From positions 62,001 to 126,000 of the forward strand of contig CALWHJ010000001.1 of NCBI GenBank assembly GCA_944380355.1: DNA of 64,000 bases, written 5' to 3'. Shown here piece after piece: positions 1 to 10,693 of the stretch (its first letter is position 1; each line of letters opens with the position of its first letter). The translations under genes were made by a program, and so were the position numbers. Below the pieces are notes generated by a model. That model searched no databases. It was not told where the DNA came from and saw only the letters and a list, made by a program, of their open reading frames with translations. This DNA comes from an uncultured Christensenellaceae bacterium (GTDB lineage Bacteria; Bacillota; Clostridia; Christensenellales; UBA3700).

Positions 1-1093
1 GATGCTCGTATGCCGCCTTGATTATAGTATCGGGCATACGGTTGGCTTTCAAAATTTCCACGCCGTCCTTTACGTGTCCCGTAATTACGTTTACGCTAAC
101 CTCGGGTATAAGGTCGTCGTGAGGGTTTTTGCCGTCGGTCTGGTTTTCGACGAAGTACTCGGGATTGTTCATCTTGCCTATGTCGTGGAAGTATGCGCAA
201 GCTCTCGCCATATAAGGATTGAGGTCTATAGCGTTTGCACAGCTTTCGGCGAGGTTTGCTACGCTCGCAGAGTGATTGTAAGTACCGGGAGCCTTCTCCT
301 TAAGCTCTTTGAGAAGCGGCTGAGTAGGAGAACATACTTCTGCAAGCTTGAAGTTTGTCCATACGGAAAACAGCGTTTCGTAAAGAGGAAGGAATATGAG
401 GAATATTGCCACGGAAAGCATATTTCCTATCAAACTTCCGAACATTGCTCCGCCTACGCTTGCGGCAGTGCCGTTTTGCGCAAAATAGTTGTACAGTCCC
501 GCAAGAGGAGTCATCGCAAGTCCCAGCAAAATCGTACCCCACGTAAGACGCAGACGACTGTATTCTCTGCCTACGAGGATATTCATAAACATACTCGTAA
601 TCATCGAAACTATAAGACTTCCCACTATTGCGGTGCTGAATTCCTCAGGCTGAAGCACGTATGTACTCGACATAAATACCGCCATCATCGTGCCCATAGC
701 AATAAAAGTCGTTACGATACCCAGCTTTTTGTTGGAAAGCACGGTTACCATCATCGTTACGGACGACATAACTATTGCGTAAGGAGTAAAGAAACTGTAC
801 AATACCGACGATACGACTACCGCAATAAAGATTATCGAATAACATATAAGACATCTTTTGCCCACCGATATATATTCCTCGGCGTGCTTGTCGAATCTAA
901 CGATATAAATATACAGAGTAACCATCAGCAGATATACTATTACCGTCAGGGGCAGGTAAACCTTGTAAAAGGAAAATATACTGAAGTCCTTAGCGATACA
1001 GGCTACCGAAAAAACCATCATAAAGAAAGTGAGTACGAAAATACCCGCCAATCTTCCCGCGGTAGTAAGAACCTGCTTTTTGTCAATTTTCAT
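1..1093 (-). CDS. pgpH: PgpH/YqfF-type c-di-AMP phosphodiesterase (7TM-HD), 3' end cut by window edge
   Basis: Seen: an open frame from ATG at 1093 to the window edge, 364 residues without a stop. The first ~230 residues are several hydrophobic segments (the first at about 15-35), followed by an HD-hydrolase domain with HDIGK at 303-307 and a conserved downstream Asn/His region (PHDD, ITGH). Known: this family (YqfF in Bacillus, PgpH in Listeria) hydrolyses cyclic di-AMP at the membrane. Context: the start lies 1 nt after the phoH stop, the usual phoH-pgpH arrangement, so the two are translated together. Odd: the family normally has a large extracytoplasmic 7TMR-HDED domain between the first and second membrane segments. 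Here the next hydrophobic stretch follows almost at once, so the domain is missing. The end of the HD domain is outside the window. Confidence 0.88.
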   Translation of the reverse strand, partial: MKIDKKQVLTTAGRLAGIFVLTFFMMVFSVACIAKDFSIFSFYKVYLPLTVIVYLLMVTLYIYIVRFDKHAEEYISVGKRCLICYSIIFIAVVVSSVLYSFFTPYAIVMSSVTMMVTVLSNKKLGIVTTFIAMGTMMAVFMSSTYVLQPEEFSTAIVGSLIVSMITSMFMNILVGREYSRLRLTWGTILLGLAMTPLAGLYNYFAQNGTAASVGGAMFGSLIGNMLSVAIFLIFLPLYETLFSVWTNFKLAEVCSPTQPLLKELKEKAPGTYNHSASVANLAESCANAIDLNPYMARACAYFHDIGKMNNPEYFVENQTDGKNPHDDLIPEVSVNVITGHVKDGVEILKANRMPDTIIKAAYEH

Positions 1094-1094
1094 C

Positions 1095-2075
1095 TTAAAT
1101 TACCTTTTCCTCATTGTTTATACTCTTTTCGTACGCTTTGACGATTGCTTGTACCAAATCGTTACGTACGATATCTTTTGCCTTAAGATTAACTATTTCT
1201 ATCCCCTCGATATCCTTGAGAATAGCCGACGCGTGCAGAAGTCCCGAAGTCTTGTTGTCGGGCAAATCTATCTGAGTGGAATCTCCCGTAACCACTATAC
1301 GGCTACCCTCGCCCATTCTCGTCAAGAACATCTTCATCTGTTCTTTGGTAGTGTTCTGAGCTTCGTCCAGAATAATGAACGCGTTGGAAAGCGTGCGTCC
1401 GCGCATATAAGCGAGAGGAGCGATTTCGATAACACCTTTTTCAATAAGTCTGGAATAAACTTCAAGCCCGAACATCTCTTGCAGGGCATCGTAAAGCGGT
1501 CTGAGATAGGGGTCTACCTTTGCTCCCAAATCGCCGGGTAAAAAGCCGAGTTTTTCGCCCGCCTCGACGGCAGGTCGCGTAAGAATGATTTTATCTACGG
1601 CCTTATTTTTATACATCGTGACCGCTAGAGCTACGGCAAGATAAGTCTTTCCCGTACCTGCGGGTCCGATACCGAATACTATCGGATTGTTTCTGATTGC
1701 TTCGACATACTTGGCTTGTCCGTACGTCTTACACTTTACGGGTTTACCTTTGGCGGTAACGGCAATAACCTTGAAAAGTTCGTCAAACCTGTCCTCTTCG
1801 CCGTTTTCCGCTATCTCCGCACAAAACCTTATAAACGCTTTATTGACAGCGTTGGTTTTGGATTTTTCCAGCAACAGTTTTATCAAGGTGCAACATTTGT
1901 CGACCTTTTCGTCTTCGCCTTCGACTACAACCGCGCCGCCGAATAAATTGATATTTACCCCGAAACGCTTTCTAAGATAATTTGCGTTTTCGTCGTGATT
2001 GCCGAAAAGGGCAATAGCGTCTTGCAAATCCTTAACTTCGATTTCGACTTTGATAATAGTTACACTCCTTGACAA
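1095..2075 (-). CDS. phoH: PhoH-family ATPase
   Basis: Cytoplasmic PhoH-like P-loop ATPase, about 326 residues, the usual family length. A small KH-like N-terminal part (about 10-70) precedes the ATPase, with Walker A GPAGTGKT at 137-144 and Walker B IILDEAQN near 235. PhoH proteins are linked to RNA and ribosome metabolism; the precise role is unsettled. The gene overlaps the end of yqfD by 16 nt if it starts at TTG 2075. That TTG has no Shine-Dalgarno, while a clear AAGGAG at 2070-2065 is spaced 7 nt from an in-frame ATT at 2057, so initiation at the rare codon ATT is possible (320 residues). It is followed immediately by pgpH. Confidence 0.93.
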   Translation of the reverse strand: MSRSVTIIKVEIEVKDLQDAIALFGNHDENANYLRKRFGVNINLFGGAVVVEGEDEKVDKCCTLIKLLLEKSKTNAVNKAFIRFCAEIAENGEEDRFDELFKVIAVTAKGKPVKCKTYGQAKYVEAIRNNPIVFGIGPAGTGKTYLAVALAVTMYKNKAVDKIILTRPAVEAGEKLGFLPGDLGAKVDPYLRPLYDALQEMFGLEVYSRLIEKGVIEIAPLAYMRGRTLSNAFIILDEAQNTTKEQMKMFLTRMGEGSRIVVTGDSTQIDLPDNKTSGLLHASAILKDIEGIEIVNLKAKDIVRNDLVQAIVKAYEKSINNEEKVI

Positions 2076-3184
2076 ATAGCTTGTTCTACAATATAGTATA
2101 TATCTATTATATGCAAATTGTCTACCCTTTTGCGCAAAGTATAATTATTTAGAAGTTTTGCTTGTGGAGGCAATTCTTGCCAAAGTTGCATTTCGTACAC
2201 GGTAATTTGCTCGTCTATTTGCTCCTGAGAAAGCGTTGTTTCCCTCTCTTCCACTTCGTAGTACGTAGTAGTTACCGCCTTTATAGGAACAACCGAACCG
2301 AAAGTCTTGCTCTCGCTGACGCTTTCGTATGCGTCATACTTTGGCACGTGCGCTTTGCCTATAGGCTTTCCGAAAACGTATATCTGAGTATTCTTATACG
2401 AATTGCCGGTACGCACTCTTTCCAAAGCTTTTTCACTCAGCGTAACGCGTGCCGAATAAGCGCATTCGGCATATACTTCGCCTGCTGCCTCTACGGCTAT
2501 GCGCTCATTGTCCTCAGTGTCGGGATAGGTGTCTATGTATCCGTCGATAAGCACGTCTCCCGCCTTGACTACGTCACCCGCTTTTACGAGTGCAGTACCC
2601 GAATATACAAGCACGCGCGTAATAATTCCGTCGCAAGAAGCGACTATGCGGGAGTAACTCTCGGGAGTTTCGTCGCTATGTACGTTTTGCACCTCTATCT
2701 TAAGTATTCCGCCCTCAAAATAACAATTCGCAAATCCTATATCGTCCACTTCCGAAGTTATGGCGTAGGACAGAGCTTTGGTGTCGAGCGAAGTCTTACG
2801 TGAATATTTCTTATAGCCGAATTCGTCGAGAATCTGCATAATCTGTACTCTCTGAGTACCGTCGGCACACTCTATCTCAACACCTAAACACACTTTGGTA
2901 CCAAGACATATTCCTATGACGGCTATTAGAGCGCAAATAACCAAAGAAAGATATCTCAAAGCCGTCTTTTTCGCAAGATACGCTCCCCCTCTTTTCAATA
3001 CGCGGTATTCCATTCGCTGAGCGGAAAGCACTTGCGTTACGGTTTTGAGATTTTTATCGTCTATGCAAAAAGTAAGTTTCCCGTCCTTACTCTTAAGGTT
3101 TTTTATTCTTACTTTTTTGTCGAGAAAAGTATTTAGCAAACGCGAAGCGTTTCTCTCTTCGCACTCTATGCGGGTATATCTCAT
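2060..3184 (-). CDS. yqfD: Sporulation protein YqfD
   Basis: 374 residues. A soluble N-terminal domain (about 1-75) is followed by one membrane segment (about 78-98, ALRYLSLVICALIAVIG) and a large C-terminal part, as in the YqfD family of endospore formers. Within it, residues about 180-235 (VKAGDVVKAGDVLIDG) resemble a lipoyl/HlyD-like beta-hairpin region. In Bacillus yqfD is made in the mother cell under sigma-E and needed for efficient sporulation; its molecular function is unknown. The start overlaps the yqfC stop by 4 nt (ATGA), showing translational coupling. Family assignment rests on architecture, sequence feel and operon position. Confidence 0.88.
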   Translation of the reverse strand: MRYTRIECEERNASRLLNTFLDKKVRIKNLKSKDGKLTFCIDDKNLKTVTQVLSAQRMEYRVLKRGGAYLAKKTALRYLSLVICALIAVIGICLGTKVCLGVEIECADGTQRVQIMQILDEFGYKKYSRKTSLDTKALSYAITSEVDDIGFANCYFEGGILKIEVQNVHSDETPESYSRIVASCDGIITRVLVYSGTALVKAGDVVKAGDVLIDGYIDTYPDTEDNERIAVEAAGEVYAECAYSARVTLSEKALERVRTGNSYKNTQIYVFGKPIGKAHVPKYDAYESVSESKTFGSVVPIKAVTTTYYEVEERETTLSQEQIDEQITVYEMQLWQELPPQAKLLNNYTLRKRVDNLHIIDIYYIVEQAICQGV

Positions 3185-3453
3185 ATCTTTTCCTCCCCGA
3201 CAGTTACGCTGAGCACCTTACCTTTGATTATTATCTCCTCTTTCTGACTTGCGGCAATGCTCAATCCCTTTCCCTCGAGCGTAACGGCAGAGGACGATTT
3301 AAGTCTCAATACTATCTTGTCATTTGAAAAGTACAATACCCCCTTATGTCCTTCGACTACCGCATAATCCTTTGCCAACGTAACTTTATAAATATTGCTA
3401 AGTCCGTCCGCACCGCGTTTTAATTTTTTAAAAACCTCTTTATCGTAACTCAT
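3181..3453 (-). CDS. yqfC: YabP/YqfC-family sporulation protein
   Basis: 90 residues, the typical size of YqfC, with the all-beta pattern of the YabP/YqfC family (VTLAKDYAVVEGHKGVLYF, then ending in LSVTVGEEKI). Known family members are needed in sporulation and belong to the sigma-E regulon in Bacillus. The ATG at 3453 has AGGAG at a good distance. A sigma-E-like promoter lies just upstream (3472-3500). First gene of yqfC-yqfD-phoH-pgpH. Confidence 0.88.
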   Translation of the reverse strand: MSYDKEVFKKLKRGADGLSNIYKVTLAKDYAVVEGHKGVLYFSNDKIVLRLKSSSAVTLEGKGLSIAASQKEEIIIKGKVLSVTVGEEKI

Positions 3454-9154: not shown

Positions 9155-10528
9155 TCAGTCAGCGTTTTTTATATTTTCTTCTGCCATACCGTCTTCGTCA
9201 GACGCGTCTTCGGACTGTTTTTGCTTAGACTGCTTGTTTTTGGCAGGTTTAATTTTTGACTTGACTTTTTTGTAAGCACTCTTTATGTTTTCGGTAAATT
9301 TGTTTCCCGCTTCGTCTACCTTATCTCCAAAGTCGCCCAGCTTTTTCTTTACGTCGTCCACGCTTTCTTTTCTCTTTTCCGCTTTGCGGCGTTTGTATCT
9401 CTCTACGTATTCTTCGTCCACCGATATGGATACGCTCTTATCGTCGGGTACGATTACGTCGCTTGCAGCCTGCTCGTCAGAGCTGTCGCGCGACGAATTG
9501 TCTGACGTGCTTTGACGGTTTTTCATATAGTCGCTTTCAAATCTTTCGGTATCGTCAAGATTCTCCGCCTTTGCGTTTTCCTCTTCTTCACTTGCTTTCA
9601 TAGCTTCGTCCGCTTCCTTGTCTGTCAGCGAAAGCGCGGCAAGAGTACGCAAAAATCTGCTCTTGATTTTCGCAAGCTTTTGCGCTATAGTCGATTTAGG
9701 CTTATTTTTGTTGTCCATATGCTCTGCTACTCCGCTTTGTTCTTCTGAGATTTGTTCCGAGTCGGAAATCACTTCTCCCGTGCTCTCTCCTCCGTCGGTA
9801 TGCCCGACCGTACCTATGGTTTCTCCGGCTCCTTCGACGGCTTTGACGGTCTGTCGGCGTCTTACGTTGGGAGCAATATATCTGCTAATTACGTAGCTGA
9901 CTCCGCTGACCTTTTCCTTATAATTCTTATACTTTCTTTTAATCTTTGCGCTAATCACCCACGTAGCTATCGACAAAGCTATCTGTATCAACGCAAAAAA
10001 CAGCGAGAATACCGATATCGCGAAAGTAAACTTATCTCCCCTGCCCGCAATATCGTTTGACGTAAGCTGTGCCGTATTTATCAAAACTACTATCGTCAGC
10101 GCGATATTGATTACTTTTAAAAACTTTCTTGCAAGAGAAAAACTCTTTTTGAAATATTTGAAAGTCTTTTTTCTCTTAGGAGAAAATCTCGCAAAAATTA
10201 TAAAAAAAACTATCGCGTATATCAGCAAAAATATCAACAGCGTAATCGTGTACCAGTCGAATACCGCACGCGCCGTTTCTCCCCACAGCGTAACGTCGAA
10301 AGCTATTTTGAAATACGAACCTATCGAATTTACGCCCTTCAGGCGGTAGTAATCCGCCGCCCGCGTGAATATCCTCACCGTACAGTTTATGTAGTATACG
10401 AAAAAGGATAGCAAAGAGAAATACTTATAAAACTTTGCCGACCACTTTGAATTGTAATCTTTTTTATTGTCTGATTTTTCTCCGCTATTCTCTTGCGCGA
10501 TAAAGTCGGGAGATTTTTGCGTTTCCAT
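9155..10528 (-). CDS. Membrane protein with long charged C-terminal tail, unknown function
   Basis: 457 residues from ATG 10528. Four hydrophobic segments lie in the first ~215 residues (YFSLLSFFVYYINC, WYTITLLIFLLIYAIVFFII, VINIALTIVVLINT, FAISVFSLFFALIQIALSI). A long hydrophilic, Glu/Asp/Lys-rich tail follows, with predicted coiled or disordered stretches. Not recognised. An upstream in-frame ATG (10564) would lie inside the -35 box of a consensus promoter whose predicted start falls on ATG 10528, and ATG 10528 has no Shine-Dalgarno. I therefore take 10528 as the start, likely on a leaderless message. It is first in an operon with the DtxR-type regulator and the small membrane protein. Confidence 0.72.
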   Translation of the reverse strand: METQKSPDFIAQENSGEKSDNKKDYNSKWSAKFYKYFSLLSFFVYYINCTVRIFTRAADYYRLKGVNSIGSYFKIAFDVTLWGETARAVFDWYTITLLIFLLIYAIVFFIIFARFSPKRKKTFKYFKKSFSLARKFLKVINIALTIVVLINTAQLTSNDIAGRGDKFTFAISVFSLFFALIQIALSIATWVISAKIKRKYKNYKEKVSGVSYVISRYIAPNVRRRQTVKAVEGAGETIGTVGHTDGGESTGEVISDSEQISEEQSGVAEHMDNKNKPKSTIAQKLAKIKSRFLRTLAALSLTDKEADEAMKASEEEENAKAENLDDTERFESDYMKNRQSTSDNSSRDSSDEQAASDVIVPDDKSVSISVDEEYVERYKRRKAEKRKESVDDVKKKLGDFGDKVDEAGNKFTENIKSAYKKVKSKIKPAKNKQSKQKQSEDASDEDGMAEENIKNAD

Positions 10529-10534
10529 AGCTAT

Positions 10535-10563
10535 ATTATATAACACAAAAGCTCCCTTGTCCA
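10535..10563 (-). promoter_or_regulatory. Promoter giving a probable leaderless transcript
   Basis: TGGACA (10563-10558), 17-nt spacer, TATAAT (10540-10535). The start codon A (10528) is 7 nt past the -10 box, where transcription should begin. Confidence 0.65.
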
Positions 10564-10693
10564 TAGATTTTGCAAAAAGTTATCTGATGACTAACTTTTG
10601 TAAAAACCGTGTAATTCATTTTTTATGAAAACGGCTGTATATACTTGAAGAATTTGAAAATAATTTTAGTACCAACATAAGGAGGTAGTACTG

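Follow-up and report, generated by a model that had tools for sequence, protein, structure and literature searches.

The pgpH (yqfF) gene at the left edge of the window analysed here, a stretch of 64,000 nucleotides (C1:62001-126000), encodes a PgpH protein that has no extracytoplasmic 7TMR-HDED domain (hereafter HDED), and this short form is the inherited state of a large clade rather than a peculiarity of the window gene. Taken as a whole, the evidence makes it probable that the protein is a PgpH/YqfF orthologue whose HDED was lost in the ancestor of the clade, whose membrane core and HD domain stayed intact, and which serves as the sole dedicated c-di-AMP phosphodiesterase of its genome, free of control through an outside domain.

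Results

The pgpH reading frame occupies positions 2-1093 of the window on the minus strand and is open at the left edge, so that the window holds the 5' 364 codons of 481 and the remainder of the gene lies outside it. The complete gene (C1:61648-63093, minus strand, corresponding to L002:4648-6093) encodes 481 amino acids (AA), in a genome of 1.6 Mb that is 96.9% complete. It belongs to a single-strand cluster with the order yqfC-yqfD-phoH-pgpH-ybeY, with era and recO beyond, which is the usual order for pgpH and contains the phoH-pgpH-ybeY arrangement expected of a PgpH gene. The upstream genes, all on the minus strand, are phoH directly upstream (1095..2075; best NCBIfam match PhoH PRK10536, 218.6 bits, below the curated cut-off of 380), yqfD (2060..3184; TIGR02876, 194.8 bits, below the curated cut-off of 256.7) and yqfC (3181..3453; TIGR02856, 38.7 bits, below the curated cut-off of 77.8). 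The pgpH ATG stands one base after the phoH stop, an in-frame stop is present two codons above the ATG, and a ribosome-site-like run, GAGGAAAAGG, lies directly before it; together these leave no space 5' of pgpH for a missing piece. No Rfam RNA, such as a c-di-AMP riboswitch, scored over its gathering score near pgpH, in the window or in L002. A 379-codon frame is open antisense to pgpH (2-1141, plus strand); long antisense frames recur along the window and look like an effect of codon bias. Elsewhere in the window, a 469-AA reading frame (9155-10564, minus strand) has no Pfam match at 1e-5.

In the complete protein, Pfam recognizes a 7TM-7TMR_HD membrane core at AA 45-246 (356..961 of the window, minus strand; 42.3 bits for a cut-off of 29.4) and an HD phosphohydrolase domain at AA 271-414 (59 bits; 1..283, minus strand, running past the window). 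There is no Pfam match to HDED even with an E limit of 10, the N-terminus being left without any assignment, and a six-frame search of the genome, at 96.9% completeness, found no HDED elsewhere at E 0.001. A first-pass annotation had read the gene as a PgpH lacking HDED, with an HDIGK motif at residue 303 and hydrophobic segments that begin near residue 15 and continue directly. This reading is confirmed by the Pfam results, by the match of the HD domain to Listeria PgpH, by the alignment of long and short forms and by the structure match: HDIGK is at AA 303-307 of 481 (173..187, minus strand), the first transmembrane helix (TM1) spans about AA 15-33 and the second (TM2) about AA 47-65. The same annotation allowed that an HDED might yet be found at the N-terminus of the complete gene, where the profile search detects none. 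The outside domain is indeed gone, but the N-terminus as such is not, since TM1, which precedes HDED in long forms, is kept (model helix AA 5-34; 992..1081, minus strand; AlphaFold2 model of a 98%-identical protein and alignment with long forms); the missing part is therefore the domain between TM1 and TM2. In its place, alignment, hydropathy and the model give a linker of four residues (AA 35-38; 980..991, minus strand) where long forms have an HDED of about 250 residues.

When seven short and 12 long relatives of the same order were aligned, a single block differed, the roughly 250 residues between TM1 and TM2 that short forms lack, and TM1, the seven further helices and the HD domain aligned throughout. 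In hydropathy profiles, 73 of 74 short rows have 12-32 residues (median 16) in the larger of their first two loops, and the last row has 70; for the largest loop of the 45 long rows the median is 250 (range 23-307). Hydropathy peaks number eight in 59 of the 74 short rows, seven in 14 and nine in one; the window protein has seven at the threshold used for the alignment of short and long forms. The AlphaFold2 model, which is that of the 98%-identical relative L118 computed with 65 further short forms, has eight membrane helices and a first linker of four residues (mean pLDDT 92.9, pTM 0.88). The window protein accordingly has the 7TM-7TMR_HD core preceded by an extra TM1 that is expected of a PgpH (by the Pfam score above and the eight model helices), and it lacks the HDED expected between TM1 and TM2. 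Named relatives chosen as short match HDED in 0/66, the 7TM core in 58/66 and HD in 66/66 at E 0.01. Across 22 short forms, almost every invariant column is located after residue 235, and the membrane core is much more divergent than the HD domain.

The HD domain is that of a PgpH. Listeria PgpH (Lmo1466) provides the sole PDB sequence match to the window protein at E 0.001 (E 4e-58), and its HD domain accounts for the top four Foldseek hits (TMt 0.94-0.95, 0.95 for 4s1c_A; 43-44% identity; 1.6 A rmsd). Residues H274, H303, D304, K307, H340, H364, H365 and D409 are invariant in 22/22 and in 66/66 short forms, as is G306 of the HDIGK motif in short forms. We take H274, H303, D304, H340, H364 and H365 to be the metal ligands, so that the cytosolic C-terminal HD domain with intact ligands and HDxGK motif typical of PgpH is present. 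K307 and D409 align with Lys547 and Asp648 of Listeria PgpH, which are named in an excerpt of PMC12072042. Features of other phosphodiesterases were looked for in the same protein: Pfam finds no DHH/DHHA1 catalytic domain of the GdpP type, and the sequence contains no GYP, as an HD-GYP c-di-GMP phosphodiesterase would; in the structural search, the HD-GYP structure 4mcw is matched at E 0.016 versus 1e-15 for PgpH. The short PgpH is predicted, very probably, to act in the cytosol and to break down c-di-AMP, most likely to pApA.

Other components of c-di-AMP signalling were sought in this genome. It encodes one DAC protein, CdaA-like and of 274 AA, and the gene that comes after cdaA is not cdaR but a DUF1015 gene (L110:2754-3578, on C2), which breaks the usual cdaA-cdaR-glmM order; no YbbR domain (CdaR) was found in the genome. 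Two of its proteins match DHH, namely RecJ and a short DHH/DHHA1 protein, here called NrnA-like, and no GdpP was found. The short PgpH therefore seems to be the one dedicated c-di-AMP phosphodiesterase of the genome, with the proviso that at 96.9% completeness a gene located elsewhere could be missed. Of 200 genomes drawn evenly from the order, 180 have a detected DAC, among them 96 of the 98 with a short form and 61 of the 64 with a long form, and 75 have a detected YbbR. The two short-form genomes with no detected DAC are 79% (G134) and 99% (G179) complete. Three genomes that are 92-98% complete (G046, G059 and G113) have a full-length PgpH with neither DAC nor YbbR detected. In family f28, all 12 genomes sampled (0.8-1.3 Mb, 98-100% complete) have neither DAC nor PgpH core, which suggests that this family has lost c-di-AMP signalling.

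The short gene is present in 16 of 17 genomes of the genus and in 45 of 46 of the family, where its frames measure 476-551 AA. In G025, counted among the 45, a stop interrupts the match; the sole family genome with no match is 70% complete. HDED exceeds its cut-off in none of the 46 family genomes. A sub-threshold HDED match in one of them (G010:C35; 23.7 bits, cut-off 27.6) was judged by eye to be an unrelated, coiled-coil-like reading frame of 596 AA. In the order sample, the 7TM core (PF07698) is found in 162 of 200 genomes at E 0.001, the set used here, and in 147 over the curated cut-off. HDED is over its cut-off in 65 of the 200, together with the core in 64, and 98 of the 162 have the core with no HDED over the cut-off, a number that may include genes cut by a contig end, such as those of G124 (frame 322) and G064 (frame 417). 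These 98 genomes span 16 families, one of which, f10, is mixed, and the median genome size (from rounded table sizes) is 1.7 Mb for short forms and 2.35 Mb for long ones. The HDED frames listed for the order sample are long PgpH proteins of 598-939 AA, save pieces in G086 and in the fragmented G140, where a second piece was found. The G086 piece, a 351-AA frame with HDED and no core match, was rejected as a separate gene, the contig ending just after HDED. Weak HDED matches below the cut-off occur in G074, G201 and G220.

Short forms among named relatives come from MAGs labelled Christensenella, Clostridia, Borkfalkia, Gallimonas, Fimimonas and others, and also from two Endomicrobiaceae and one Nitrospirota MAG. 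Under an approximate rule based on frame and start, the best 80 named loci, which were drawn with a short-form query and do not measure a frequency, divide into 68 short, 10 labelled long and two cut by a contig end inside the gene (L129 and L132). The 10 include the doubtful L186, whose 680-residue frame is labelled long and has its HD motif 311 residues after the first ATG, and which we count neither way. The alignment holds 66 of the 68 short loci, L134 and L174 falling outside the start rule.

Beyond the order, a draw of 398 genomes of the phylum was searched with a short-form profile; all 398 match something, many of them weakly and perhaps through other HD proteins, and what follows covers about the best 150 matches. 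Frames of less than 600 AA among the matches listed are the window gene itself, G429 (family f38), six genomes of genus g241 (f125) and G434. G429 and the six g241 genomes have a short PgpH in sequence, with PhoH-like frames just upstream where these were inspected by eye, and the g241 short forms include single-contig genomes. The 410-AA frame of G434 was rejected as a short form, being part of a long PgpH whose HDED is in another frame: at L203 (G434:C32:50100-55000), a PgpH of full-length type extends over two frames, with HDED in one and the core and HD domain in the other, a split that may be a sequencing error or a real break. Such a broken long form shows that frame length alone can mislead; the six-frame search excludes a break of this kind for the window gene.

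The tree comprises 90 rows of PgpH core, with family f1 thinned to 8 of 33 rows. Eight of the 80 named loci were included, as were three of the eight loci fetched from the phylum draw; G046 is in it twice (L056 and L109). As it is built on the PgpH core itself, long-branch effects on that gene are possible. The short forms of the window clade make one group of 34 with a support of 100; the five short forms from f10 are placed among long forms, and f38 and f125 form a separate short group. The short or long label changes at least four times on the tree, at least three of them on starred branches, and a tree constrained to unite all 45 short rows is rejected (p-AU 1.7e-09), in a test that long branches may influence. 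These sequence comparisons indicate that the short form arose separately in other lineages. Three short PgpH genes come from MAGs labelled as two other phyla, Elusimicrobiota (L174 and L181, Endomicrobiaceae) and Nitrospirota (L196). Short forms with these labels group together, next to the window clade at a weak fork (support 86), and may reflect transfer, separate loss or mislabelled bins.

Change counts on a tree give no direction, whether gain or loss, and a midpoint root puts 37 short rows on one side. We nevertheless read the changes as losses of HDED, because HDED is present in the B. subtilis, Synechococcus and Bacteroides controls and because one short form in f10 (L093, G155:C28, genus g81) keeps both HDED edges matching L097, a full-length PgpH of the same genus, around a loop of 70 residues at about AA 45-115. 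L093 is an apparent intermediate of domain loss, and loss is the simpler reading within f10. The Thermotoga maritima control matches 7TM-7TMR_HD and not HDED, which hints at a short form there too. In conclusion, HDED was most likely lost in an ancestor from which a large clade of Clostridia with small genomes descends, a direction that we infer.

Loss of HDED goes with absence of YbbR in the order sample: among the 162 core genomes, 61 long forms have YbbR and three do not, and five short forms have it and 93 do not (Fisher p 1.2e-34, a test that ignores relatedness). The three long-form genomes without YbbR are the three without DAC. A functional link between the loss of HDED and that of CdaR was considered and is not claimed, as independent pairs on the tree give it no support and separate short-form lineages keep CdaR. 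Only three such pairs differ in HDED, and over 200 random pairings YbbR differed the same way in 0.0 of the 3, the opposite way in 0.1 and not at all in 2.9. All five f10 short-form genomes keep YbbR, as do all seven genomes outside the order in which a short form was seen (G429 and the six of g241). G436, also of g241, keeps YbbR, its PgpH not being among the matches listed; among long-form phylum genomes, 42 of 45 keep YbbR.

Discussion

The analyses above are consistent with a model in which an ancestor shared by a large clade of Clostridia with small genomes would have lost HDED with the eight-helix core and catalytic HD domain staying intact. The resulting short PgpH would counter the single cyclase CdaA by hydrolysing c-di-AMP to pApA in the cytosol, and would be the only dedicated c-di-AMP phosphodiesterase of the genome studied here; both its substrate and its activity are predicted. 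Its control would come from the cytosol, the membrane helices or expression, and not through an outside domain. The first-pass annotation suggested that a PgpH without HDED may be unregulated or respond to another input. An excerpt of a 2023 review (PMC10243994) states that (p)ppGpp inhibits PgpH, and cytosolic control of this sort could remain in the short form, whose HD domain keeps its metal-site residues.

Signals from outside or from the envelope might still be received through the eight-helix bundle, for instance as membrane tension or lipid state, or through a partner that docks on TM1 and replaces HDED. Both the window protein and those short rows that were aligned or modelled keep TM1, and sequence divergence is far greater in the membrane core than in the HD domain. 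TM1 may however be kept merely for eight-helix topology, and no partner gene was found among the neighbours of pgpH, which are ordinary conserved genes, so that we consider continued reception of an outside signal rather unlikely, if still the strongest competitor of cytosolic control. A displaced HDED acting in trans from a separate gene is a far weaker candidate, one that we hold very improbable and for which no supporting evidence was found: the genome gives no HDED match at E 0.001, none of the 46 family genomes has one over the cut-off, and the HDED frames listed in the order sample belong to long PgpH proteins, bar the G086 and G140 pieces. An assembly error, a frameshift or a wrong start can make a normal PgpH look short, as the 410-AA frame of G434 proves. 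For the window gene this reading is ruled out by the phoH stop one base upstream, by the lack of HDED in six frames of the genome and by the recurrence of the same architecture in 45 of 46 family genomes, with single-contig g241 genomes showing it as well; the upstream exon-like start or frameshift that the first-pass annotation had envisaged as restoring HDED is excluded on the same grounds of phoH spacing and six-frame search.

The short form could be the older state in part of the tree, with HDED inserted between TM1 and TM2 in other lineages; change counts are silent on direction, and the midpoint root keeps the 34-row window clade with the Elusimicrobiota- and Nitrospirota-labelled short forms, through the weak fork of support 86. 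Insertion has to contend, though, with HDED in the B. subtilis, Synechococcus and Bacteroides controls and with L093, which keeps both domain edges in a genus that has a full-length member, and we judge it improbable beside ancestral loss. HD domains differ in substrate, and the protein might have ceased to be a c-di-AMP phosphodiesterase, its HD domain now acting on another nucleotide. An excerpt of PMC9259658 reports a Porphyromonas gingivalis protein of PgpH type with conserved motifs that raised, and did not lower, c-di-AMP, so that conserved motifs do not prove hydrolysis in vivo. Yet the match to the HD domain of Listeria PgpH (44% identity, 1.6 A rmsd), the invariant ligand set and the absence of both DAC and PgpH core from the sampled f28 genomes all favour c-di-AMP, and a change of substrate has in our opinion only a small chance of being right. 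Loss of HDED from a c-di-AMP phosphodiesterase remains our preferred explanation.

Excerpts of PMC12072042 and PMC10243994 describe PgpH with its outside domain, the latter presenting the role of this domain as open and calling for work on it, and text searches of open-licence PMC papers returned, among the matches listed, no paper on an HDED-less PgpH. The short PgpH is a natural experiment on that role. Several lineages dispense with HDED cleanly between two membrane helices, which indicates that the catalytic core can be retained in the long term without it, and the natural TM1-TM2 junctions can be used to design a domain-deletion test in a laboratory strain. The window clade, being also without detectable CdaR, offers a c-di-AMP system with neither outside domain. 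No link between the two losses is claimed, in view of the tree pairs and of the short-form lineages that have YbbR. We raise tentatively, as an idea somewhat more doubtful than probable, that a large gut-type clade of Clostridia runs its c-di-AMP cycle with no outside sensor on either side, its cyclase having no CdaR and its one phosphodiesterase no HDED. If this were true, the c-di-AMP pool would be set purely from the cytosol or the membrane helices, and the outside domains would be dispensable add-ons to an essential signal.

Compared with known systems, the window protein shares with GdpP/YybT (PAS-GGDEF-DHH/DHHA1) the same proposed reaction, c-di-AMP to pApA, as given in an excerpt of PMC12072042, but its catalytic domain is unrelated and GdpP was not found in the genome. 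The CdaA-CdaR-GlmM complex is the opposing half of the signal cycle; a CdaA-like DAC is present here, whereas CdaR, the outside YbbR regulator, is undetected and a DUF1015 gene follows cdaA. The P. gingivalis protein PDEpg is likewise of PgpH/HD type with conserved motifs, and differs in being reported to raise c-di-AMP (excerpt of PMC9259658). The closest likeness is to PgpH/YqfF itself (Listeria monocytogenes Lmo1466, B. subtilis YqfF), with which the window protein shares a gene located after phoH, eight transmembrane helices, a cytosolic HD fold and the metal ligands, and from which it departs by having no HDED and only 481 AA, its HDIGK motif being 302 residues after the start, whereas nine named long relatives have theirs 507-547 residues past the first ATG.
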